The notes beneath the pieces were generated by a model. It worked only from the letters and a program-made list of their open reading frames with translations, did no database searches and was not told the DNA's origin. The position numbers were made by a program, and so were the translations under genes. DNA of 64,000 nt, taken from positions 124,001 to 188,000 of the forward strand of contig CAINED010000021.1 in the NCBI GenBank assembly GCA_903847605.1. The letters run 5' to 3'. This document shows, piece by piece, positions 9,873-21,058 of this stretch. Within the stretch, counting starts at the first letter, position 1, and each line of letters begins with the position of its first letter. This DNA is from an uncultured Hyphomicrobiales bacterium (GTDB taxonomy: Bacteria > Pseudomonadota > Alphaproteobacteria > Rhizobiales > Beijerinckiaceae).

Positions 9873-10436
9873 ATGCGAACCCCGAAGCGCTCCGGCCTCC
9901 GCCTCGTCGCTCGCCTCATACTGGCACGACGGATATTGGGGCGGCTATTTGATTCAAAGCTGCCATACGAATTGAGCGCATATGAAAAGGCTTCCGGTAT
10001 TTCGATGCCGGTGTCCTTACTAAGCGAGGACCGGAAACTCACGCGGTCCATTATTGTGACGCGAAAGAAAGGTTTCGAGTCCGAACCGCCGGAAGTCGAT
10101 TTTAGATGGCGCGGCGATGAAGGCGGGCGCAACATCAAGACGAATGTGGAAGAGCTGAAAAGGCTACACACGCAGGTTTCAAATTTCCTGCAGCTTCACG
10201 CGGCAGGCGTCCCGACGCGATCGGTCGCACGGTCACCGATACAAAAGAGCCCGATCGGTCTTTTTGCGGACGGACCAGACCCTGCGCGGATCACGACGGT
10301 GTGTTATTCAAAAAGGGGCTATCCGGTCGCGGCACAATTCACCTCTCTGCGTGATATAGAAATATTCCGCAACGACTTGGAGCAGCTTATCTCATGGGCG
10401 GAGGCCGCGACCATATCTTCCGATCTGGTCAACTGA
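9873..10436 (+). CDS. Hypothetical protein
   Basis: 187 residues if read from ATG 9873; the later ATG at 10005 (MPVSLLSEDRKL) is equally possible and would remove a basic N-terminus of uncertain origin. No recognised domain, signal peptide or membrane segment. The C-terminal half (ARITTVCYSKRGYPVAAQF, then FRNDLEQLISWAEAA) looks like a small alpha/beta fold. Its composition is less GC-biased than its neighbours, which together with the sparse, AT-richer DNA after it suggests transferred or decaying sequence. It starts 10 bp after the VOC dioxygenase stop. Coding status is probable, not certain. Confidence 0.45.
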   Translation: MRTPKRSGLRLVARLILARRILGRLFDSKLPYELSAYEKASGISMPVSLLSEDRKLTRSIIVTRKKGFESEPPEVDFRWRGDEGGRNIKTNVEELKRLHTQVSNFLQLHAAGVPTRSVARSPIQKSPIGLFADGPDPARITTVCYSKRGYPVAAQFTSLRDIEIFRNDLEQLISWAEAATISSDLVN

Positions 10437-11018: not shown

Positions 11019-12245
11019 TCAGATTTCGAGCGCCTCTTTCATCGACGCCCTGCTCTTGAGAAACCACAACCCGGCAACCAGGCTGATGGCGGCGGCCAGA
11101 GCATAGGACCAGCGCAAGCCCGTCCATTCCGCGATGCCGCCGAACACCAGCGCGCCCAGCGCCGGCGTTCCCCGAAATACGAGGGTATAGAGCGACATCA
11201 CCCGCGCCCGCAGGCTGTCGTCCACGGCCGATTGCACCAGCGCCTGGACGCTGACCGAGAGCGTGTTCAGCGTGTAGCCGGACAGCGCGCAGAAAATGAC
11301 TCCGACCCAGAGTCTGTCCGTCGCCACCAGGCCAAAGGTGGCAACGACAAGACCGAAGAGCCCGGTGAAAGCCGCCGTCGTCAGCCCGGCCGCCCGGCCT
11401 CGCATCGCGACCGCCGTCGCGCTGATCATGGCGCCGACGCCCATCGCCGATGTCAGCCAGGCCAGACCGACGGCGTCCGACTTGAAGACAGCCTCGGCGA
11501 ATCCCGGCAGCATTTCCTGGAGCGGACGCAGGCAGGCCGAGGCGACCAGGAGCATCAGGAGCAGCGGGCCGATCCCGCGATGCTCGCGGACATAGGCGAA
11601 GCCGCCCGCAATATCCGAGAGAAAGCCTTTGCGACTGTTGTGCCGTTCGGGCGGCGGCACGTGCATCATGTGCATGAAGATCGAGAAGACGAACGTCCCG
11701 ACGAGATGGCCCCAGAAGGCGCCGAGCACGCCCCAGACGGGAATGATCAAGGCCGCGATTGCCGGTCCGACGAAACGGCTTGCCTGAAAGAGCGCGGAAT
11801 CGAGCGAGACGGCCGCCGCCACCAGCGGACGGGGCACAGTATGCGGCACGGTCGCATGCCGCGCAGCCCCGCCGAACGTCTGCACGACGCCAAGGGCAAG
11901 GGTGAGAACAAGCAGAAGTTCGATGGTCATCCACCCCGCCATCATGGCGGCGACGACGCAAGCGCACTGCACGAACTGCAGCCACTGCGTCAGCCGCAAC
12001 GCGTTGACCGGCACCACCCGGTCGATCGCCGCGCCGGCGAAGGGCGACAGGAAAAAGACGGGGATGAGGTCGGCAGCGGCAATCACGCCGAGCCACGCGG
12101 GCGAGCGCGTCAGCTCCCAGGCGAGCCAACCGACGCCGACGCGATACATCCACGAGGATATAGCGTGCGGCCCGAGGCCGATCATGAACAGCGCGTAATT
12201 GCGATGGCGGAACACCTCGATGATCGGCTGAAGGCGGGCGCTCAT
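11019..12245 (-). CDS. MFS transporter, EntS/MFS_3-like exporter
   Basis: 408 residues with about 12 hydrophobic segments. The N-terminus (FRHRNYALFMIGLGPHAISSWMYRVGVGWL, recognisable by FRHRNYALFMIG) and the LSPFAGAAIDRV loop after TM2 are typical of the MFS_3 group, which includes the enterobactin exporter EntS and related small-molecule exporters. ATG at 12245 is chosen (MSARLQPIIEVF), with GAGGA rather far upstream; an upstream in-frame ATG at 12323 would add 26 residues without similarity. It is divergent from the SET/ATP-grasp gene across 189 bp, so a shared control region and a link to that pathway are plausible but unproven. Confidence 0.8.
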   Translation of the reverse strand: MSARLQPIIEVFRHRNYALFMIGLGPHAISSWMYRVGVGWLAWELTRSPAWLGVIAAADLIPVFFLSPFAGAAIDRVVPVNALRLTQWLQFVQCACVVAAMMAGWMTIELLLVLTLALGVVQTFGGAARHATVPHTVPRPLVAAAVSLDSALFQASRFVGPAIAALIIPVWGVLGAFWGHLVGTFVFSIFMHMMHVPPPERHNSRKGFLSDIAGGFAYVREHRGIGPLLLMLLVASACLRPLQEMLPGFAEAVFKSDAVGLAWLTSAMGVGAMISATAVAMRGRAAGLTTAAFTGLFGLVVATFGLVATDRLWVGVIFCALSGYTLNTLSVSVQALVQSAVDDSLRARVMSLYTLVFRGTPALGALVFGGIAEWTGLRWSYALAAAISLVAGLWFLKSRASMKEALEI

Positions 12246-12434
12246 GTTCTTGTTCGTGCTTTCCTCGTCGCGCCCTCGCGGCGATCCATTTGCAACAGTC
12301 TGCGGAAAAACGGGGAGAGACAACCGGTCTGGAAATTTTATCCTTGGATATTCAGTTTCAATTCATTTACGGCGCGCAATAGAAGCAATACACAAATTCA
12401 GTTTTGGGGCCAGTTGCAGGGGACGAGGTCCAGT
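12246..12434. promoter_or_regulatory. Divergent control region between MFS exporter and SET/ATP-grasp cluster
   Basis: 189 bp, clearly AT-richer than its flanks. It holds two exact copies of ATTCAGTTT (12350-12358 and 12396-12404) 46 bp apart, which could be binding half-sites, and a GGACGAGG ribosome site at 12421-12428 for the plus-strand gene. I could not assign a confident -35/-10 pair. Confidence 0.4.
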
Positions 12435-14066
12435 ATGCCGTCAGCCAAAAGAGCCGTCAGCCGCAAGGCGCCGATCGAAGCGCCTGCTATTCAGCTGGAA
12501 AAGATCGTCAACCGCCGCGCGCCACGCATCCTTCTCGACCACGGCCCCTATGGCGACATCGTCAAGGCGGCAGGCGCGTTCAAGACCGGCGAGCGGATTT
12601 TCTATCTGTCCGGCGACATCATCGACCATCCGACCAAGTACACGATCCAGCTCGACGAGCATGACCATGTGCTGACCCGCGACAGCATGTGGCAATCCAT
12701 GAACCACGGCTGCGAGCCGAACGTGCGGATCGATGTGGAAAAGCGCGAGATGGTCGCCGCGCGCCCGATCAAGAAGGGCGAAGAGTTCAATTTCAACTAC
12801 AATACGACCGAATGGGCGATGGCCTCGCCCTTTCCCTGCGGCTGCGGCGCGCCGACCTGCGCTGGCGAAATCCGCGGCTTCAAATATCTTACGGAAGCGC
12901 AGCGCGCGCCCCTGCGCGATCTCGTTTCGCCCTATATCGCTCGCCGTTGGGCGGAAGCTGTCGATACGCCCGCGCCAAGCGTGCGCACGCTACGACCGGA
13001 AGTTCAGCTTCTCGCCCCCTATATGATCGAGAACGGCGTGGCCGTGAGCCCGGACTACGATGTCGATTCCTTCCGGAACGAGTTGAAGGGCTGGTTCGAG
13101 CCGCTGAACCTCGACTATGTCTGGCATCCCGTCACCCTCGGGACCATCGACGAGGTGGTCGCGCGCCTCGAACAGCGCATGAGCGATAAGGCGATCGTCG
13201 TCCTGAACCTGTGCGACGGTTCGGAGGACGACGGCTATCCCGGCAAGAGCCTCGTCACAGCGTTGGCGCGTGCGGGATTGCCCTATAGCGGCGCGGGCAG
13301 CACGTTCTACGAAGTCACGACATCCAAACTTGCGACCAAGCGCCTCCTGCGCGCCTCTGGCGTCTCGACCGGCGAATTCGTGGTCATCGAAGATGCCGAA
13401 CGGGATCTTCCGGTGGCGGTCGAAAAGATCGGCTATCCGCTCTTCATCAAGCCGGACATATCCGCCGGCAGCTACGGCATCAGTCTCGATTCGGTCTGCT
13501 ACGATCTGGAATCGGCGCGCGCCAAGGCCGAAAAGCTGCAGGGCGACAAGTATTTCTACTCCTGCGCCGTTTTCGCAGAACCCTTCATCGACGGGCGCGA
13601 GTTTACCGTGCTTGTGGTCGAGGATCCGACGCAGCCGCTCGGGCTTTATGTCCTGCCGCCCGGCGAGCGCGTCTTCGACAAGCGCGTGCCTGCGAACGAG
13701 CGCTTCCTCGCCTACGAGCGCTACTGGGAGCTTCCCGAAGAGCAAAGGCGCATACCTGAAGGCGAGCCCTATTACTGGTATCGCAGCGCGCCCGACGATC
13801 TGCGCGAGGAAATCGCCACGCTCGCGCGGCGCGCCGTTCGCGCGGTCGATGGCGCAGGCTATGCCCGCGTGGACATCCGTCGCTCGGAGAAACTCGGCAA
13901 GCTCTTCGTGCTCGAAGTGAATGCGCAGTGCGGTCTTTCGACCGACGATTCCTCGACGGTCGGCAGCCTGCTCAACCTGGCCGGCAAGAAAATGTCCGAG
14001 ATGATGGAGCGAGTGCTCGACCACGCCCTGACCCGGGCGCGGCGTCCGAACCCGCATAGCGCCTGA
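12435..14066 (+). CDS. SET-domain / ATP-grasp ligase fusion protein
   Basis: 543 residues in two parts. Residues about 22-150 form a SET methyltransferase domain: MNHGCEPN (89-96) is the NHS/C-type SAM motif, KKGEEFNFNY (113-122) the second signature, and Cys135/Cys137/Cys142 in FPCGCGAPTCAGE form a post-SET zinc site. Residues about 190-535 form a D-Ala-D-Ala-ligase-type ATP-grasp domain: the phosphate-contacting Lys339 (LFIKPDISAGSYG), the AEPFIDGREFTV strand with Glu382, and the metal-binding end FVLEVNAQCGLS (Glu494, Asn496). So one chain should both methylate and form an amide or peptide bond, or methylate what it ligates. Its ATP-grasp half is a close paralogue of the gene at 16179. It heads a plus-strand cluster with an ABC exporter. 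Start: ATG 12435 with GGACGAGG 6-7 bases upstream. Substrate unknown. Confidence 0.85.
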   Translation: MPSAKRAVSRKAPIEAPAIQLEKIVNRRAPRILLDHGPYGDIVKAAGAFKTGERIFYLSGDIIDHPTKYTIQLDEHDHVLTRDSMWQSMNHGCEPNVRIDVEKREMVAARPIKKGEEFNFNYNTTEWAMASPFPCGCGAPTCAGEIRGFKYLTEAQRAPLRDLVSPYIARRWAEAVDTPAPSVRTLRPEVQLLAPYMIENGVAVSPDYDVDSFRNELKGWFEPLNLDYVWHPVTLGTIDEVVARLEQRMSDKAIVVLNLCDGSEDDGYPGKSLVTALARAGLPYSGAGSTFYEVTTSKLATKRLLRASGVSTGEFVVIEDAERDLPVAVEKIGYPLFIKPDISAGSYGISLDSVCYDLESARAKAEKLQGDKYFYSCAVFAEPFIDGREFTVLVVEDPTQPLGLYVLPPGERVFDKRVPANERFLAYERYWELPEEQRRIPEGEPYYWYRSAPDDLREEIATLARRAVRAVDGAGYARVDIRRSEKLGKLFVLEVNAQCGLSTDDSSTVGSLLNLAGKKMSEMMERVLDHALTRARRPNPHSA

Positions 14067-14251
14067 GCAAATGGCCACGCTCCCTGCGGCGCGTGGCAAG
14101 GTGAAATGCAATTCCTATCAGCAGCTTGCCCGGAGTTATCCGGCATTCAGGCAGCATTCATGCGCCCGGTGTGAACGTGTCCATTGCGTGCTGACGAAAT
14201 GATCCGGCGGGGGCCCGGACGCCAGAGCGCCGGTTTCGAGGACATTTCACC
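14067..14251. other. Spacer between SET/ATP-grasp gene and small ORF
   Basis: Part of a 323-bp gap between recognised large genes (14067-14389). A hairpin GCCACGC (14074-14080) / GCGTGGC (14091-14097) with a 10-base loop follows the stop codon but lacks a T-run, so it may be an mRNA-stability element rather than a terminator. No other signal recognised; the rest of the gap is the small ORF at 14252. Confidence 0.4.
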
Positions 14252-14374
14252 GTGACGCCCGCTCATTCCATTCCGCGGCTTGCCATTCTGCGGCTTGCCG
14301 TTTCGTGGCTGACGCTGCCCGCGCTCCGTGCGCTGCTGGCCCGCGCCAGGAGCGGCCGTAGCATGTTCCGTTAG
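14252..14374 (+). CDS. Putative 40-residue small cationic ORF in the SET/ATP-grasp cluster
   Basis: GTG start with GAGGA 9 bases upstream (14238-14242), 40 codons, TAG at 14372, and only 15 bp before the ABC exporter. The peptide is strongly basic and hydrophobic with no Lys, Asp or Glu and about eight Arg. It contains imperfect five-residue repeats (IPRLA, ILRLA, VSWLT) that mirror a 15-bp tandem DNA repeat (about 14269-14313). About three quarters of its third codon positions are G or C, as in neighbouring genes. It could be a membrane-active or exported peptide, a leader peptide, or chance. It lacks the acidic/Ser/Thr core seen in graspetide precursors, so calling it the ATP-grasp substrate would be speculation. 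Confidence 0.35.
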   Translation: MTPAHSIPRLAILRLAVSWLTLPALRALLARARSGRSMFR

Positions 14375-14389
14375 TCCGGAGCGCGCTTC

Positions 14390-16171
14390 ATGCGGGATAT
14401 GTTCTTCAGCATCGCCGGTTACGCCAAGCGCTATCGCCTGACTGTTTTTCTGCTGTTCGGCGGCCTCGTTCTCGAAAGCCTCTATGACGTCGGCGTCCGC
14501 TATTCGATGAAGTTCGTCATCGACAAGGCGGTGGTCGAAGGCGACATGCCCGCGCTCATGTTGATCCTTGCGGCGCTGGCGGTGGGGGCGGTGATTTTCA
14601 ATTTCGTCGTCATCGCCTGCGACTATTACTGGGCGCGCATCGGCGGCAGGATCGTCAACGACATCCGCTTCGACATGTTCAACCACCTGCAGTCCCTGCC
14701 GGTGGGCTACTACCGCCGCCAGTCGTCCGGCGATCTGTCGGCGCGGTTCAACGCCGATGTCGGGCAGATCGAAAACGGCATGATCCTCGCCTTTCCGATG
14801 GCGATGGCCGGCCTCGTCGAAATCATAACCACGCTCGGCCTGATGCTGTTCGTCCACCCGATCCTCGCGGGCATCGCCGCGATCGGGATCATTTTCAGCC
14901 TGCTGGTGCCGCGCGTCATACAGGGCAAGGCGCTCGACGCCTCCTTCGTGCTGCGCAGCGAGGAAGGCCGGATGATGGGCCATGTGCAGGAAAATCTCGG
15001 GGGGCAAAGCGTCATCAAGGCCTATGGCCTCGAAAACCATGCCTCGAAGGATTTTTCGAAAAGGCTCGACGAGTTGCTGGTCAAGCTCGCCCGCGCGAAT
15101 TTCCTGTCCTATCTCGTCTCGCGCCTGCCGAGCCTGTCCTTCCTGATGCTCCAGCTTGTCGTCCTCGGCGTCGGCGGCTGGCTCACCATCAACGGACGCA
15201 TCACGGTCGGCGATCTCGTCGCCTATCAGGCGCTGCTCATCGGCCTGAACTCGGCAATCCATAATCTCACATGGATGGTGCCGTCCTTCATCGACGCCAC
15301 CGCCGGCTGGCAGCGCATCCGCGAAATTCTCGACGAACCGCTCGGCATCCAGGACCGGCCGGGCGCGCGCGATCTCGGCCGCTTCCTGACGTCCATCGAC
15401 GTGGAAAAGGTGAGCTTCAAATATCCGACGGCGGAAGTGGCAACGCTCAATCGCGTCGATCTGAAGATCGAAGCCGGACAATATGTCGTTTTCGTCGGAC
15501 GAAGCGGCGCGGGCAAGAGTTCGATCATCAACCTGATCCTGCGCTTCTACGAAGTGACGGACGGCCGCATTCTCGTCGACGGACAGGATCTGCGCGATGT
15601 GACCATGCGGTCCCTGCGTTCGCAGATCGGACTTGTTTCGCAGGAGATCACGCTTTTCGACATGTCCGTGCGCGACAATATTCGTCTGGGCGCGCTCGAC
15701 GCAACGGACGAGGACGTGATCGCGGCCGCCAAGGGCGCGGAAATCCACGATCTCATCATGACTTTGCCCGAGGGCTACGACACGTTCGCGGGAACGTCTG
15801 GCTCGCGTTTTTCCGGCGGCGAACGCCAGCGCGTCGCCCTCGCCCGCGCGCTGGTGCGCAAGCCCGCCATTCTGGTGCTCGACGAATTTTCTTCGGCGCT
15901 CGACCCGACCACGGAAGCGGAAATCCTGCAGACGATCGGGCGCCTCAAGGGCACCTGCACGATCCTGTCGGTCACCCATCGCCTGTCGATGGCGGAGGCC
16001 GCCGACAAGGTCGTCGTCATGCGCGCCGGGCGCATCGTCGAAATTGGCACGCATGAGGAACTGATCGGCAAACGCGGAGAGTATTCGCGCCTGTGGAAAC
16101 GCGCGGTCAGCGAAGAAAGAGGCGGGCCCACGCCCCCTGAACCGGCGGCATCCGCCACGCCTTCGGATTGA
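14390..16171 (+). CDS. ABC exporter, fused permease and ATPase (type IV, MsbA/LmrA-like)
   Basis: 593 residues. Six TM helices in residues about 15-310 form an ABC_membrane domain, followed by a nucleotide-binding domain with Walker A GRSGAGKSS, Q-loop in VSQEITLFD, signature FSGGERQRVALARAL, Walker B ILVLDEFSSALD and switch His in VTHRLS. This half-transporter would act as a homodimer and export lipids, peptides or small hydrophobic molecules. No peptidase C39 domain is present. ATG 14390 has GGAG about 9 bases upstream. The next ATP-grasp gene starts 7 bp after the stop, so exporter and ligase are almost certainly co-transcribed, which points to export of the ligase product. Confidence 0.9.
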   Translation: MRDMFFSIAGYAKRYRLTVFLLFGGLVLESLYDVGVRYSMKFVIDKAVVEGDMPALMLILAALAVGAVIFNFVVIACDYYWARIGGRIVNDIRFDMFNHLQSLPVGYYRRQSSGDLSARFNADVGQIENGMILAFPMAMAGLVEIITTLGLMLFVHPILAGIAAIGIIFSLLVPRVIQGKALDASFVLRSEEGRMMGHVQENLGGQSVIKAYGLENHASKDFSKRLDELLVKLARANFLSYLVSRLPSLSFLMLQLVVLGVGGWLTINGRITVGDLVAYQALLIGLNSAIHNLTWMVPSFIDATAGWQRIREILDEPLGIQDRPGARDLGRFLTSIDVEKVSFKYPTAEVATLNRVDLKIEAGQYVVFVGRSGAGKSSIINLILRFYEVTDGRILVDGQDLRDVTMRSLRSQIGLVSQEITLFDMSVRDNIRLGALDATDEDVIAAAKGAEIHDLIMTLPEGYDTFAGTSGSRFSGGERQRVALARALVRKPAILVLDEFSSALDPTTEAEILQTIGRLKGTCTILSVTHRLSMAEAADKVVVMRAGRIVEIGTHEELIGKRGEYSRLWKRAVSEERGGPTPPEPAASATPSD

Positions 16172-16178
16172 CGCGCCG

Positions 16179-17303
16179 ATGCCCACCAGCGCTCATCCCA
16201 ACCTGAAACACGTGGTCGTCTTCGCCCCGTATATCGAGGAGAACGGCAAGCTCGTCAGCCCGCATTACGACCTGCCGGACTACAGGGCGGAGATCGCAGG
16301 CTGGCTGACAGCGCTCGGCCTGTCCTTCGAATGGCAGCCGATTACTGCGCGCAATCTCGCAGGCGTCGTCGCGCATTTGCGCGAACGCGCGCAAGTTCGC
16401 GACACGCTCGTCTTCAATCTCTGCGACGGATCGCAGTCCGATGGCTATCCCGGCGTCGAGGTCGTCGAAGCGCTGGAAACCGCCGGCGTTCCCTTCACCG
16501 GCGCAAACTCCGGCTTCTATCGCCTGACGACGGCCAAGTCCGCGATGAAGGAGGCGCTCGCAGCGCACGGCGTGCCGACAGCGCCGTTCAGGATGATCGA
16601 GGATATCGACGCAGACTTGCAAATTGCGGCGCGCGAGATCGGCTTTCCTCTGTTCATCAAGCCGGATGTGTCCGCGGGCAGCTACGGCATTCAGATCGAT
16701 TCCGTCTGCTACGATCTTGCCGCTGCGCGCCGAAAAGTCCTGCAATTGGAGGGGGGGCTGCACGGCCAGAGTTTCGAGGCCGGCGGTATCCTGGCGGAAA
16801 AGTTCATCGAGGGGCGCGAGTTCACCGTTCTCGCCGTGGAAGACGAAACCCAGCCTCTGGGGCTCTGGATATTGCCGCCGGGCGAGCGCGTTTTCGACAA
16901 GCGCGTGCCGCCGCGCGAGCGCTTTCTCGCCTTCGAGCGCTACTGGGCTTTGCCTGAAGCGGAAAGGCCTATTCCGGAGGGCGAACCCTACTACTGGTAT
17001 GCTTCGGCGCCGCCGGAACTTCGAGCGCAGCTTAAGGACATCGCACGCCGCGCCATGCGCGCGGTCGGCGGTACGGGCTATGGCCGCGTCGACCTCAGGC
17101 TCGACGAGCGCAGCGGCCAAATTTTCGTTCTCGAAGCCAATGCACAATGCGGCTTGTCGTCGGACGATTCCTCGACGGTGGGAAGCATGCTGAAGCTTGC
17201 CGGGGAAGACATCGTCGATGTGATTGCGCGCGTTCTGCGGCATGGTATGGAGCGTACCGCAACGGGATCGCAAATTCTTGTGGATGCGGACGCGCGTAGC
17301 TGA
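16179..17303 (+). CDS. Stand-alone ATP-grasp ligase, D-Ala-D-Ala-ligase-like
   Basis: 374 residues; one full ATP-grasp ligase aligned along its whole length with residues 190-535 of the SET/ATP-grasp protein at 12435. Shared blocks include APYIEENG/APYMIENG, FNLCDGS..DGYPG, FIKPD.SAGSYGI.., LPPGERVFDKRVP, and the EGEPYYWY segment. Catalytic residues: Lys161, Glu207, Asp305, Glu319 and Asn321. It has no SET domain. Ligases of this type join a carboxylate to an amine via an acyl phosphate, usually giving a dipeptide or amino-acid conjugate. Starts 7 bp after the ABC exporter. The tandem paralogy suggests successive additions of similar residues or a heteromeric ligase. Substrates unknown. Confidence 0.88.
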   Translation: MPTSAHPNLKHVVVFAPYIEENGKLVSPHYDLPDYRAEIAGWLTALGLSFEWQPITARNLAGVVAHLRERAQVRDTLVFNLCDGSQSDGYPGVEVVEALETAGVPFTGANSGFYRLTTAKSAMKEALAAHGVPTAPFRMIEDIDADLQIAAREIGFPLFIKPDVSAGSYGIQIDSVCYDLAAARRKVLQLEGGLHGQSFEAGGILAEKFIEGREFTVLAVEDETQPLGLWILPPGERVFDKRVPPRERFLAFERYWALPEAERPIPEGEPYYWYASAPPELRAQLKDIARRAMRAVGGTGYGRVDLRLDERSGQIFVLEANAQCGLSSDDSSTVGSMLKLAGEDIVDVIARVLRHGMERTATGSQILVDADARS

Positions 17304-17370
17304 TCATGTCTTCACATTCCGCCGCCCCCTACTGCGCGTCCAACCCCGGCATTTCGAAAGTCCGCGCTGC

Positions 17371-18825
17371 ATGAAAATTTGCGTTCTGCAACATTCCTAC
17401 GAGCGTTCGGAGATGCTGCGCGAACACGCGCAATACGATCCACCGCGCGATCTCTCCCATCTCGCGCCGGACTGGTCATTCACGCATCTCTTTCTGCACA
17501 AGGCGACGATCTACAACCAGCTCAAGGACGCCAAGAAACAGAAGTTCGATATCTATGTGAACCTCTGCGAGGGGCAACTCACGTGGGATATCGCTTCGGT
17601 CGATGTCATTCATGCGCTCGAAAGCCTCGATCTCCCTTACACCGGCCCCACGGCCGCCCTCTACGAACCGCGCAAGGATGCGCTGAAACTCGTCGCCCGC
17701 TATGCGGGCGTCCGTTCTCCGCGCTTCGCAGCGGTTGCAAATGAATCGGAAGTGCCGCGCGCCATCCGGCATCTGCGCTATCCGCTGTTCGTGAAGCCCA
17801 ACGGCAGCGGCGACAGCTGGGGCATCGACGCAGCGAGCTTCTGCCACGACGCCGGCGCGGTTGCGCGCAAGACGGCGGAGCTTTTGCGCCAGCACGATTC
17901 GGTTCTGATCGAGGAATATGTCGGCGGGCGGGAATTCTCGGTGCTGGTCGCCGCCGATCCCGCCAATCCGAAAACGCCGCGCGCCTGGCCGGCGATCGAG
18001 TTTCGCTTTCCCGAGGGCGAAAGCTTCAAGACCTACGATCTGAAGAATGCGCAATTCCTGCCGGCGCAGAACGTACGCGTGAGGGATGCAGGCCTCGAAG
18101 AAGAACTCGTGCGCGCCGCGCGGCAGTTCTTTCTCACCTATAACGCCGTCGGCTATTGCCGCATGGATTTCCGTCTCGACGACGAGGGTGTCCCGAATAT
18201 CCTCGACGCGAATTTCACCTGTTCGGTGTTCTATCCCGACAAATATCTGGGAACCGCGGACTACATCCTGAAGCTCGATCCCGGCGGCCCATCGGAATTC
18301 TTCCGCCACATCGTCCATGAAGGCATTGCGCGCTGGAAGGCGCGGCAGAATGCCTTTGTCGTGCGCAACGATGGACTTTCGGGCCTTGGCATCGAGGCGG
18401 CGCGAAATCTCAGCAAGGGCGACATCGTCTTCAAGGGCGAGGAACTCTCGCAACGCATCGCGACAAAGCGGTGGGTCGAGACAAATTGGACCGAAGAGGA
18501 AAAAGTCACCTTCGCGCAATACGCTTATCCGCTCGACGACGAAGTGTTCATACTGTGGTCGAACGATCCGCTGGACTGGTCGCCGCAAAATCATTCCTGC
18601 GATCCGAATTGCGCCTATGACGGGCTCAATGTCGTCGCGTTGCGCGATATTGCCGAAGGCGAAGAGCTGACGCTCGACTATGCCGATTTCTGCAGCGAGA
18701 CCTCGGCCGAGTTCGAATGCCAATGCGGCGCAATCAATTGCCGCGGTAAGGTCAAAGGATCGCCGGGGAATTCCGTTTCGCTGCGAGAGCAGCGCCGCCG
18801 GCTCCTCTGCGTTCCGGGCAAGTAA
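17371..18825 (+). CDS. ATP-grasp ligase / SET-domain fusion (reverse domain order)
   Basis: 484 residues. Residues 1-315 are an ATP-grasp ligase, divergent from the other two in the cluster: Lys142 in LFVKPNGSGDSWGI, EEYVGGREFSVLV (Glu181/182), and a metal-binding end ILDANFTCSVF where Asp279 replaces the usual Glu. Residues about 326-465 are a canonical SET domain: GLGIEAARNLSKGD (338-351), QNHSCDPNC (406-414), GEELTLDYADF (430-440), and post-SET Cys450/Cys452/Cys457 in FECQCGAINCRGK. Compared with the protein at 12435 the two domains are in the opposite order. ATG 17371 is chosen because family similarity begins there (MKICVLQHSYERSE). The tautomerase follows 19 bp later. Confidence 0.87.
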   Translation: MKICVLQHSYERSEMLREHAQYDPPRDLSHLAPDWSFTHLFLHKATIYNQLKDAKKQKFDIYVNLCEGQLTWDIASVDVIHALESLDLPYTGPTAALYEPRKDALKLVARYAGVRSPRFAAVANESEVPRAIRHLRYPLFVKPNGSGDSWGIDAASFCHDAGAVARKTAELLRQHDSVLIEEYVGGREFSVLVAADPANPKTPRAWPAIEFRFPEGESFKTYDLKNAQFLPAQNVRVRDAGLEEELVRAARQFFLTYNAVGYCRMDFRLDDEGVPNILDANFTCSVFYPDKYLGTADYILKLDPGGPSEFFRHIVHEGIARWKARQNAFVVRNDGLSGLGIEAARNLSKGDIVFKGEELSQRIATKRWVETNWTEEEKVTFAQYAYPLDDEVFILWSNDPLDWSPQNHSCDPNCAYDGLNVVALRDIAEGEELTLDYADFCSETSAEFECQCGAINCRGKVKGSPGNSVSLREQRRRLLCVPGK

Positions 18826-18844
18826 AGCGCATCGGGAGGTTCGC

Positions 18845-19084
18845 ATGCCGCAGGTCATGGTCCGCCATCTCGCCGGCGTGTTCACGCGCGAGCAGCAAAC
18901 TCAGCTCATGCAGGACATGATCGACGCCTTCGTGCGTGTGGGGGGCGAAGGCATCAGGCCGAACGTCAACGTCACCATCGAGGAGGTCGCCTCCGGCCTC
19001 TGGTCTGCTGGCGGCCGGATTCTGACCATCGAGGAAATCGAGGCCCGGCGGCGACAACGCGCTGAATCGGAAGAAAATCCCTAG
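18845..19084 (+). CDS. 4-oxalocrotonate tautomerase family protein
   Basis: 79 residues, the size of 4-oxalocrotonate tautomerase/MIF-superfamily monomers. The start codon is followed by Pro (MPQVMVRHLAG), and after Met removal this N-terminal proline is the family's catalytic base. The rest fits the beta-alpha-beta fold (FTREQQTQLMQDMIDAF helix; NVNVTIEEV strand). GGGAGG lies 6-7 bases before ATG 18845. Last gene before a 145-bp gap in the SET/ATP-grasp cluster. It may isomerise an enol or imine intermediate of that pathway, or be a general hydratase/tautomerase; nothing in the sequence decides. Confidence 0.75.
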   Translation: MPQVMVRHLAGVFTREQQTQLMQDMIDAFVRVGGEGIRPNVNVTIEEVASGLWSAGGRILTIEEIEARRRQRAESEENP

Positions 19085-19229: not shown

Positions 19230-20477
19230 ATGACACTGGAAAGCACGCATCGGGATAGACACTCATCCTCGCTACGGTCCATTTCCGGCTTCAAAGAAGC
19301 GCTGGGTGGGGCTGTCGCAAGCAAGCTCGTCAGTCTGGTGGAAGTCGGCAGACTGACCGTGGTGACGCCGGCAGGGCGCGTGATTGAAAGCGCGGTCAGC
19401 CAACCAGGCCCCGAGGGCACGCTTGTTCTTCATAACTGGCGTGGATTGCGACGCCTTCTGACGCAGGGCGATCTCGGCTTTGCGCAAGGCTATTTAGACG
19501 GCGACTGGTCTTCGCCCGATCTCGCCGGCCTGATCGGCATGGCGGACCGCAATTCCGATGCGCTGATCCGCTACATAGAAGGTTACGCGCTGCTGCGCTC
19601 GGCCAATCGCCTGCGTCACAAGATGCGCGCGAATACGAAGCGCGGCAGCCGCAAGAACATCGAGGCGCATTACGACCTCGGCAACGATTTCTACAAGCTC
19701 TGGCTCGATCCGACGATGACCTATTCGTCGGCGATCTTCGCGCGCGACTACGACACGCTCGAAGAGGCGCAACAGCGCAAGATCGCGCGCATCGTCGAAC
19801 TGATGGATGTACCCAAAGGTGGCAGCGCGCTCGAAATCGGCTGTGGCTGGGGCGCCCTGTCGCGCGCGATCGCCTCGGCGGGCGCAGGCCATGTCGTCGG
19901 ACTGACGCTCTCGCCCTCCCAGCGCGCCCATGCTCTGGCGGCGATCCGCGGCACGGAGCTCGAAACGAAGACCGACATCCGGCTGCAGGATTATCGCGAT
20001 ATCAGGGGCTCGTTCGACCGCATCGTCTCCATCGAAATGATCGAGGCTGTCGGCGAGCAATACTGGCCGGTTTATTTCAAGGCCATTCACGACCGCCTCG
20101 TCGATGGCGGACATGCCGTCGTACAGGCGATCACGATCTGCGAGAAACGCTACGAGGCCTATCGCTCAAGCGTCGATTTCATTCAGCGCTATATTTTCCC
20201 CGGCGGCATGCTGCCGACGCCGACGATCATTTCCGAACAGGCGAAACAGGCGGGTCTGGTCGCGAGTTGCGCCGAGACCTTCGGGCAAAGCTATGCGAAG
20301 ACGCTCGCCATCTGGCGGCAGCGCTTTCTTGCGCACTGGCCCTCGATCATGCCGCAGGGTTTCGACGAGCGTTTCAGGCGGATGTGGGAATATTACCTCG
20401 CCTATTGCGAGGCGGGCTTCAGGAACGGCACGATCGACGTCGGCCTCTACAAGCTGGAGCGGCCTGCACGCACATAG
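19230..20477 (+). CDS. Cyclopropane-fatty-acyl-phospholipid synthase family SAM methyltransferase
   Basis: 415 residues with the two-part CFA-synthase layout: an N-terminal lipid-binding segment (GDLGFAQGYLDGDWSSPDL) and a C-terminal Rossmann methyltransferase with ALEIGCGWGALS as SAM motif I, GLTLSPSQ, MIEAVGEQYW, and IFPGGMLPTP. Such enzymes add methylene or methyl groups from SAM to unsaturated phospholipid acyl chains at the membrane; relatives act on other substrates. Lies 145 bp after the tautomerase on the same strand, so it may belong to the SET/ATP-grasp cluster or be independent. A second, divergent CFA synthase is at 31083-32336. Confidence 0.88.
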   Translation: MTLESTHRDRHSSSLRSISGFKEALGGAVASKLVSLVEVGRLTVVTPAGRVIESAVSQPGPEGTLVLHNWRGLRRLLTQGDLGFAQGYLDGDWSSPDLAGLIGMADRNSDALIRYIEGYALLRSANRLRHKMRANTKRGSRKNIEAHYDLGNDFYKLWLDPTMTYSSAIFARDYDTLEEAQQRKIARIVELMDVPKGGSALEIGCGWGALSRAIASAGAGHVVGLTLSPSQRAHALAAIRGTELETKTDIRLQDYRDIRGSFDRIVSIEMIEAVGEQYWPVYFKAIHDRLVDGGHAVVQAITICEKRYEAYRSSVDFIQRYIFPGGMLPTPTIISEQAKQAGLVASCAETFGQSYAKTLAIWRQRFLAHWPSIMPQGFDERFRRMWEYYLAYCEAGFRNGTIDVGLYKLERPART

Positions 20478-20662: not shown

Positions 20663-21058
20663 ATGAGTGAGTCCGGGTTGCAGGCAGTTCGCGACGAATT
20701 GATCGAATGGTCGCAACCGCTGATCATCGACCAGATCAACCGCTTCTATTTCCGCCGGCTGTTTCACAACGCCCCGGAAGCGCGCGAACTCGCCATCCAT
20801 CACTACCGGGTGTGGCGGCACATCTTGCGCGAGGAAATGGACGAGGCGACGCGCCTGCGCACGAAGCTCAACGCGCGCGCCGCAGAGGTCGGGCTGGCGC
20901 CTGGCGCGCTCGACGACGTGGACCGCGCGGTTCTCGACGAACTCATGGATGTCGTGGTGAGCCGCTTCCGGCGCACGCCGCAGGTCGCCCGCTCCTATGG
21001 CGTCACGCTACTCGACACCGCGACGAGCCTCGCGCGCGCCAGGCTGGCGGCCGCCTGA
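20663..21058 (+). CDS. Conserved hypothetical small helical protein
   Basis: 131 residues, largely helical by pattern, beginning MSESGLQAVRDELIEWSQ. AAGGAGG lies about 6 bases before ATG 20663, a strong start context. No signal peptide or membrane segment; rich in Arg and Ala with the repeated acidic-basic spacing of a helical bundle (DELMDVVVSRFRRTPQVARSYG). I do not recognise a family. Separated by 185 bp from the CFA synthase, and followed 82 bp later by the helicase gene; no clear functional link. Confidence 0.6.
   Translation: MSESGLQAVRDELIEWSQPLIIDQINRFYFRRLFHNAPEARELAIHHYRVWRHILREEMDEATRLRTKLNARAAEVGLAPGALDDVDRAVLDELMDVVVSRFRRTPQVARSYGVTLLDTATSLARARLAAA

Follow-up and report, generated by a model that had tools for sequence, protein, structure and literature searches.

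A gene set of SET domains and ATP-grasp ligases with a small methylated peptide or amine as its probable, often exported product

We describe a gene set of an uncultured Hyphomicrobiales bacterium that combines SET domains with ATP-grasp ligases; its product is probably a small peptide or amine that is methylated and, in many cases, exported. Gene sets of this kind are small and scattered widely among bacteria. The set lies in the window, by which we mean the whole stretch of 64,000 nucleotides that was analyzed. Our preferred reading, held with confidence only somewhat better than even, is that the four genes at positions 12435-18825 form a small-molecule pathway of ligation, SAM-dependent methylation and, where an exporter exists, export. 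Each part belongs to a known family; the combination is undescribed as far as we have searched, and its nearest kind are the ATP-grasp small-peptide pathways.

In this pathway, the Ddl-fold ligases, namely G, GS, and that half of P0001 which is a ligase (all defined below), would turn a carboxylate into an acyl phosphate and couple it, in two or three rounds, to an amine, which may be that of a second amino acid. Methyl groups from SAM would be placed by the SET halves on sulfur or nitrogen, either in the building block or in the product; the fusion of SET to ligase would keep methylation and ligation together, and the exporter, where found, would carry the product out of the cell. We infer the ligation to a short peptide or amide, the action of the SET parts on small molecules and not on protein, the order of the steps, and the export.

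Layout of the locus

The five open reading frames of the preliminary description were confirmed on the plus strand at the coordinates given there (Table 1), and its gaps of 7, 67, and 19 bp between P0002, P0003, P0004, and P0005 are correct; a gap of 323 bp lies between P0001 and P0002. Throughout, S denotes the standalone SET gene, G the ATP-grasp ligase, and GS the ATP-grasp::SET fusion, so P0001 is an S::G fusion. Four SET matches were found in the genome, two of them being P0001 and P0004. Searching plasmid records with P0004 gave 28 matches, all below 60% identity and none covering more than 80% of the protein. A promoter scan returned none, but as shuffled sequences would give just 1.5, the result is uninformative. 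Elsewhere in the window, the ORFs at 9873-10436 (187 aa) and 20663-21058 (131 aa) are without a Pfam match at E ≤ 0.001.

Table 1. Coordinates of the cluster and its neighbors in the window.
Feature	Position	Strand	Description
MFS gene	11019-12323	minus	upstream of P0001
P0001, SET::ATP-grasp (S::G fusion)	12435..14066	+	543 aa; PF00856 and PF07478 above Pfam cut-offs
P0001, N-terminal BurB-like SET with post-SET cysteines	12435-12971		residues 1-179 (approximate)
P0001, Ddl-fold ATP-grasp ligase half			residues 186-543 (approximate)
P0002, type-I ABC exporter (TMD+NBD)	14390..16171	+	593 aa; PF00664, PF00005
P0003 (G), standalone Ddl-fold ATP-grasp ligase	16179..17303	+	374 aa; PF07478, 53.6 bits
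P0004 (GS), Ddl-fold ATP-grasp (N) and SET with post-SET cysteines (C)	17371..18825	+	484 aa; PF07478 and PF00856 both above Pfam cut-off
P0005, tautomerase-like ORF	18845..19084	+	79 aa
Cyclopropane-synthase-like gene	19230-20477		downstream of the cluster

In G711, a relative of the same genus, two contig ends carry the genes: the S::G fusion (70%) and the ABC exporter (87%) lie on one, G (73%) and GS (85%) on the other, with the same outer neighbors as in the window. The contig ends are consistent with the order of the window, split by the assembly. The slot of the tautomerase, which had been counted among the pathway genes, is empty in G711. P0005 scored 16.3 bits against PF01361, below the Pfam cut-off of 22, and no relatives of it at E ≤ 1e-4 were detected among the ORFs of at least 60 aa in loci L009-L084. 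Therefore, P0005 probably stands outside the pathway.

Conservation and spread of the core

Scanning genome contigs for exact short motifs yielded 75 loci with a GS-type core; as the motifs were taken from only two alphaproteobacterial sequences, the scan is incomplete. By record label, 58 loci belong to Bacteroidota groups, 7 to Gemmatimonadota, 4 to Alphaproteobacteria, 3 to Acidobacteriota, and one each to 'Deltaproteobacteria', Verrucomicrobia, and Williamsia. The locus labeled Williamsia (Actinomycetota; L053) probably comes from a mislabeled bin, its G grouping with Bacteroidota.

The presence of GS is by construction, since the search used it, which does not apply to G and S. The core of the set taken as one pathway in the preliminary description recurs in other genomes, and the second ATP-grasp ligase is kept beside the fusion: G adjoins GS in 68 of the 75 loci, from five phyla by record label, and the exact pattern S-G-GS is found in 37. 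S is linked in 45 loci, and L046 adds one in which it is fused to G, giving 46/75. Partial copies of G stand at the contig start in L029 and L059, and L084 has S-G on a contig that ends before GS. The fusion in L046 (8261-9931) comes from a Chitinophagaceae MAG and may be an assembly error; by its position in the ligase tree, it is apparently independent of the fusion in the window.

The genes also occur together when they are not adjacent. Among 248 genomes of the order of Lacibacter, presumably Chitinophagales, both S and GS were found in 27, S only in 2, GS only in 4, and neither in 215 (Fisher p 1.3e-29, with genome relatedness ignored and with thresholds picked after viewing the match lists). 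S-G and GS lie on different contigs in the genome of L061 (G731), G lies on a contig other than that of GS in the genome of L037, and in G1091 a distance of 1.7 Mb on the contig separates S from G-GS. The retention of S and GS despite their being unlinked points to one function, and the presence of the core in 75 loci to an association above chance. Neighbors that came together by chance, with the SET proteins, ligases, and exporter serving unrelated functions, would fit the absence of an exporter beside many relatives and the absence of S near G-GS in 29 of the 75 loci (20 of these with more than 1500 bp upstream), but conserved order, co-occurrence, and repeated fusion make this explanation extremely improbable. 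S was found in none of the 7 Gemmatimonadota loci. We are confident that S, G, and GS belong to one pathway. The single pathway of the earlier reading is partly supported: gene order, unlinked co-occurrence, and S::G fusions speak for the link between SET and ATP-grasp, whereas the tautomerase and obligatory export are not supported.

Two further S genes were seen in G1019, a genome without a GS match (L107:3704-7246 and L108:6806-12780). The first has as its neighbor a TPR protein that carries a CHAT domain, and the second lies 2.7 kb from a TPR-looking protein.

Relatives of P0004 are rare among organisms close to that of the window, being detected in 2 of the 6 listed genomes of the window's genus (own genome counted), 2 of 149 of its family, 2 of 199 of its order (own counted), and 1 of 385 of its class, the last being the genome itself. 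GS-like genes were present in 4 of 247 genomes of the phylum Acidobacteriota, two of them SET-less and one degenerate, and in 32 of the 248 genomes of the order of Lacibacter, 31 of them full length. So patchy a distribution, both inside one genus and between phyla, is suggestive of horizontal transfer of the gene set.

Ligase and SET parts

An ATP-grasp ligase fold of the D-Ala-D-Ala ligase type is predicted in the structural models, and entries of the Ddl family fill the best 50 listed fold matches of each model. The residues K120, K124, K161, E207, R303, D305, E319, and N321 of G, as well as C324, are kept in 72/72 aligned sequences, and R264 and D266 of GS in 71/71. A Ddl fold with conserved residues of the ATP- and metal-binding type could also mean that the ligases make a modified peptidoglycan dipeptide, which the SET parts would methylate. 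However, the three cluster ligases scored 76.8, 64.9, and 58.6 bits against TIGR01205 (Ddl), for which the cut-off is 245.65, whereas a separate Ddl of the same genome, on contig C62, reached 275.1 bits. The identity of a housekeeping Ddl was thereby ruled out. In addition, no cell-wall genes were found among the eight window neighbors scanned, and such a variant would not need an exporter, so that we consider it very unlikely. Unlike Ddl, two of the three cluster ligases are fused to SET, and the cluster ligases have an NLCDG/NLCEG stretch with a conserved cysteine three residues past the asparagine.

A tree of a subset of 34 sequences, rooted at the midpoint, joins the G domain of P0001 with P0003 and the P0003 orthologue of G711 (98/98), and both G of L070 with the single G of L072 (100/99); the first G of L011 forms a long branch of uncertain position. 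We had considered the two G domains of the window as an ancient pair common to other clusters and rejected this, as the tree groups them within the lineage. The duplication of G looks lineage-specific and seems to have occurred more than once. Such repeated gain of extra ligases fits a number of ligation steps that would vary between the clusters.

SET methyltransferases are best known for marking histones, and research on SET domains has, to our knowledge, dealt almost exclusively with the methylation of lysine in proteins. The SET residues, on whose conservation the preliminary description had made its reading depend, are kept in most relatives. In S, N90, H91, C93, P95, Y122, E126, C135, C137, and C142 are present in 47/47 sequences. 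In the alignment of GS, N407, H408, and C410 are kept in 69/71 and Y437 in 66/71, and the three post-SET cysteines in 68/68 sequences with letters there. In L070 (5253-6545) and L072 (4384-5529), GS retains an intact ligase half, but its SET half is short and degenerate. No SET-domain structures were among the listed fold-search matches of either model, the lists being filled by the ligase domain; hence, the SET fold is assigned from sequence and Pfam.

When the S profile was compared with solved structures, BurB scored 93.1 bits and the next entry 48.9. As a control, another SET protein of the genome was compared by its 105-aa core, which had viral vSET as its best match; BurB was absent from the best 60 of its 81 matches. 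The SET half of P0004 is equally near BurB and KMT2D (43.0 vs. 42.4 bits). BurB of Burkholderia thailandensis (PDB 9l4t, 9l4v) is described in the available passages of PMC12542666 as a SET-domain methionine S-methyltransferase that acts on free methionine. For the first SET domain, lysine methylation is therefore not the best guess, since the target of its nearest solved relative is the sulfur of free methionine. Like BurB, S has post-SET cysteines and a tyrosine at the place of Tyr124 (Y122, 47/47), and the equivalents of Thr73, Gln75, His81, His93, Cys95, Tyr124, and Glu128 are invariant in 31/31 S rows. On the other hand, the equivalent of Arg133 is found in 1/31, of His138 in 3/31, and of Ser88 in 0/31 rows, and the SAM contacts Arg133 and His138 of BurB are not matched in P0001, which has Ser131 and Gly136. 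The Y124F variant of BurB retains over 60% of its activity according to the same passages (PMC12542666). Together with the differing positions, this means that the substrate of S does not follow from the residues held in common with BurB.

Given that BurB is its closest solved relative, S could make S-methylmethionine on the way to DMSP-like compounds, with the ligases just conjugating or storing the S-methylmethionine. We regard this sulfonium pathway as distinctly unlikely, since several BurB positions differ in S and no DMSP-pathway decarboxylase, transaminase, or dehydrogenase was found among the eight window neighbors scanned. BurB is standalone in its DMSP route, and no ATP-grasp partner is named in those passages of PMC12542666, whereas S in the window is fused to a ligase.

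The cluster could instead act on protein, the ATP-grasp enzymes adding amino acids to it and the SET parts methylating its lysines. Protein lysine is the target of most characterized SET enzymes. A eukaryotic parallel is TTLL12, in which, as described in passages of PMC3520985, SET-like and tubulin-tyrosine-ligase-like domains stand in one chain. The resemblance is that of SET-like and ATP-grasp-like domains in a single chain, but by these descriptions the ligase domain of TTLL12 is of the TTL type (PMC3520985). Against protein modification speak the matches of the ligase parts to the Ddl family, which occupy the best 50 listed per model, the action of the closest solved relative of S on free methionine, and the recurrence of exporters as neighbors. 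We therefore judge protein modification unlikely and prefer the small-molecule pathway.

Exporters and known systems

P0002 scored 362.7 bits against the NCBIfam MsbA model, below the cut-off of 602. Among the 66 loci whose sequence extends 1200 bp or more past GS, 35 have a gene there with the ABC transmembrane domain (TMD) only; those scanned, three in number, are PF13748 and lack the ATPase half of P0002. The site beside GS is where one would look for a partner exporter. The gene is on the strand of GS in 33 of 34 clustered loci and on the opposite one in L065, and on the contig of L052 the TMD family is read on both strands. TMD-only genes beside GS were recorded at L016:11566-12456 and in 33 further loci. 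One was also seen in G1209, a genome without a GS match (L110:7248-8138), with a 74-aa ORF nearby, close to the contig end, that gives a weak GS match (37 bits).

The other 31 of the 66 loci have no TMD gene, although two of them, L070 and L072, carry a full, P0002-like ABC exporter inside the cluster. In the order of Lacibacter, TMD and GS occur together in 14 genomes, TMD alone in 1, and GS alone in 17 at the chosen threshold; 14 of the 31 GS-positive genomes thus have the TMD gene. Fusions without the exporter, which by the earlier reading would count against a single pathway, are therefore common, yet the link among S, G, and GS stands; what is not supported is obligatory export.

The best matches of P0002 were found in G711 (87%), G728 (46%), G722 (43%), and G721 (42%). 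They adjoin cluster genes in G711, G722, and G721, and a SET-less GS-like ligase in G728. The next exporter in these four genomes scored at most 276.6 bits, except for one on contig C104 of G722 (422.5 bits). In the order of G722, 5 of 130 genomes have a P0002 match at E ≤ 1e-105. Three of the five are additional to the genomes above. In one of them, G1256, a more distant P0002-like exporter is divergent to a GS gene (L123), and near the distant P0002 relatives of the other two, G1348 and G1248 (L121, L122), no match to S, G, or GS was present. SET and ligase genes thus accompany this exporter group often, though not always, in two phyla; close relatives of P0002 stand next to cluster genes in other Alphaproteobacteria and in Acidobacteriota.

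On contig C104 of G722 (L114:2335-8026), two SET genes lie between a P0002-like exporter with a cNMP-binding domain and a gene for carboxynorspermidine decarboxylase. The decarboxylase scored above its cut-off, and a carboxynorspermidine-synthase-like gene 405.6 bits, below its cut-off of 800; this may be a methylated-polyamine cluster. In G728 (contig C52, L098:996-7182), the P0002-like exporter is convergent to the SET-less GS-like ligase, and the cluster also holds LicD, cupin-like, and nucleotidyltransferase-aminotransferase genes.

Like the present set, graspetide RiPP clusters hold an ATP-grasp ligase next to other tailoring genes (PMC8939145). Unlike those of graspetides, the cluster ligases are of the Ddl type. 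No conserved precursor peptide was detected among 409 plus-strand ORFs of 20-80 aa, from 700 bp upstream to 500 bp downstream; the largest group of these ORFs came from 10 loci and, in the six rows listed, lay inside the TMD gene. A RiPP or graspetide cluster was rejected, as a conserved precursor was not found on the plus strand of the flanks. For an anti-phage defense system, PADLOC gave nothing specific: at E ≤ 0.001 no model matched P0001, P0003, P0004, or P0005, nor the single TMD gene and the single S that were scanned, and P0002 matched four models, best mad3, through its ATPase part.

Iyer and colleagues (2009) reportedly treated ATP-grasp amidoligases, and Aravind and colleagues (2011) are said to have covered chromatin methylation; either may contain an earlier mention of the pairing. 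Among the literature matches listed, and subscription papers aside, no description of the SET/ATP-grasp pairing was found; SET domain and ATP-grasp were named together in PMC3520985, the TTLL12 paper, and the passages of PMC3980110 make no mention of a ligase, fusion, or operon.

It is possible, though doubtful, that the gene set represents a new, non-ribosomal way of making peptides or amides, with bifunctional SET::ligase enzymes coupling SAM methylation to the ligation of amino acids. The products would be sulfonium- or N-methyl-bearing di- or tripeptides, often exported, and the ligase pair would extend over at least five phyla. If so, SET enzymes would have a general role in the small-molecule metabolism of bacteria beyond BurB, and the conserved SET-ligase fusions, twice in one locus, would make such a role directly testable. 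Carriers in culture, by record label, include Lacibacter cauensis, L. luteus, Ferruginibacter paludis, Sediminibacterium roseum, and Ginsengibacter hankyongi. The gene set points to an uncharacterized metabolite of environmental bacteria, isolates among them.
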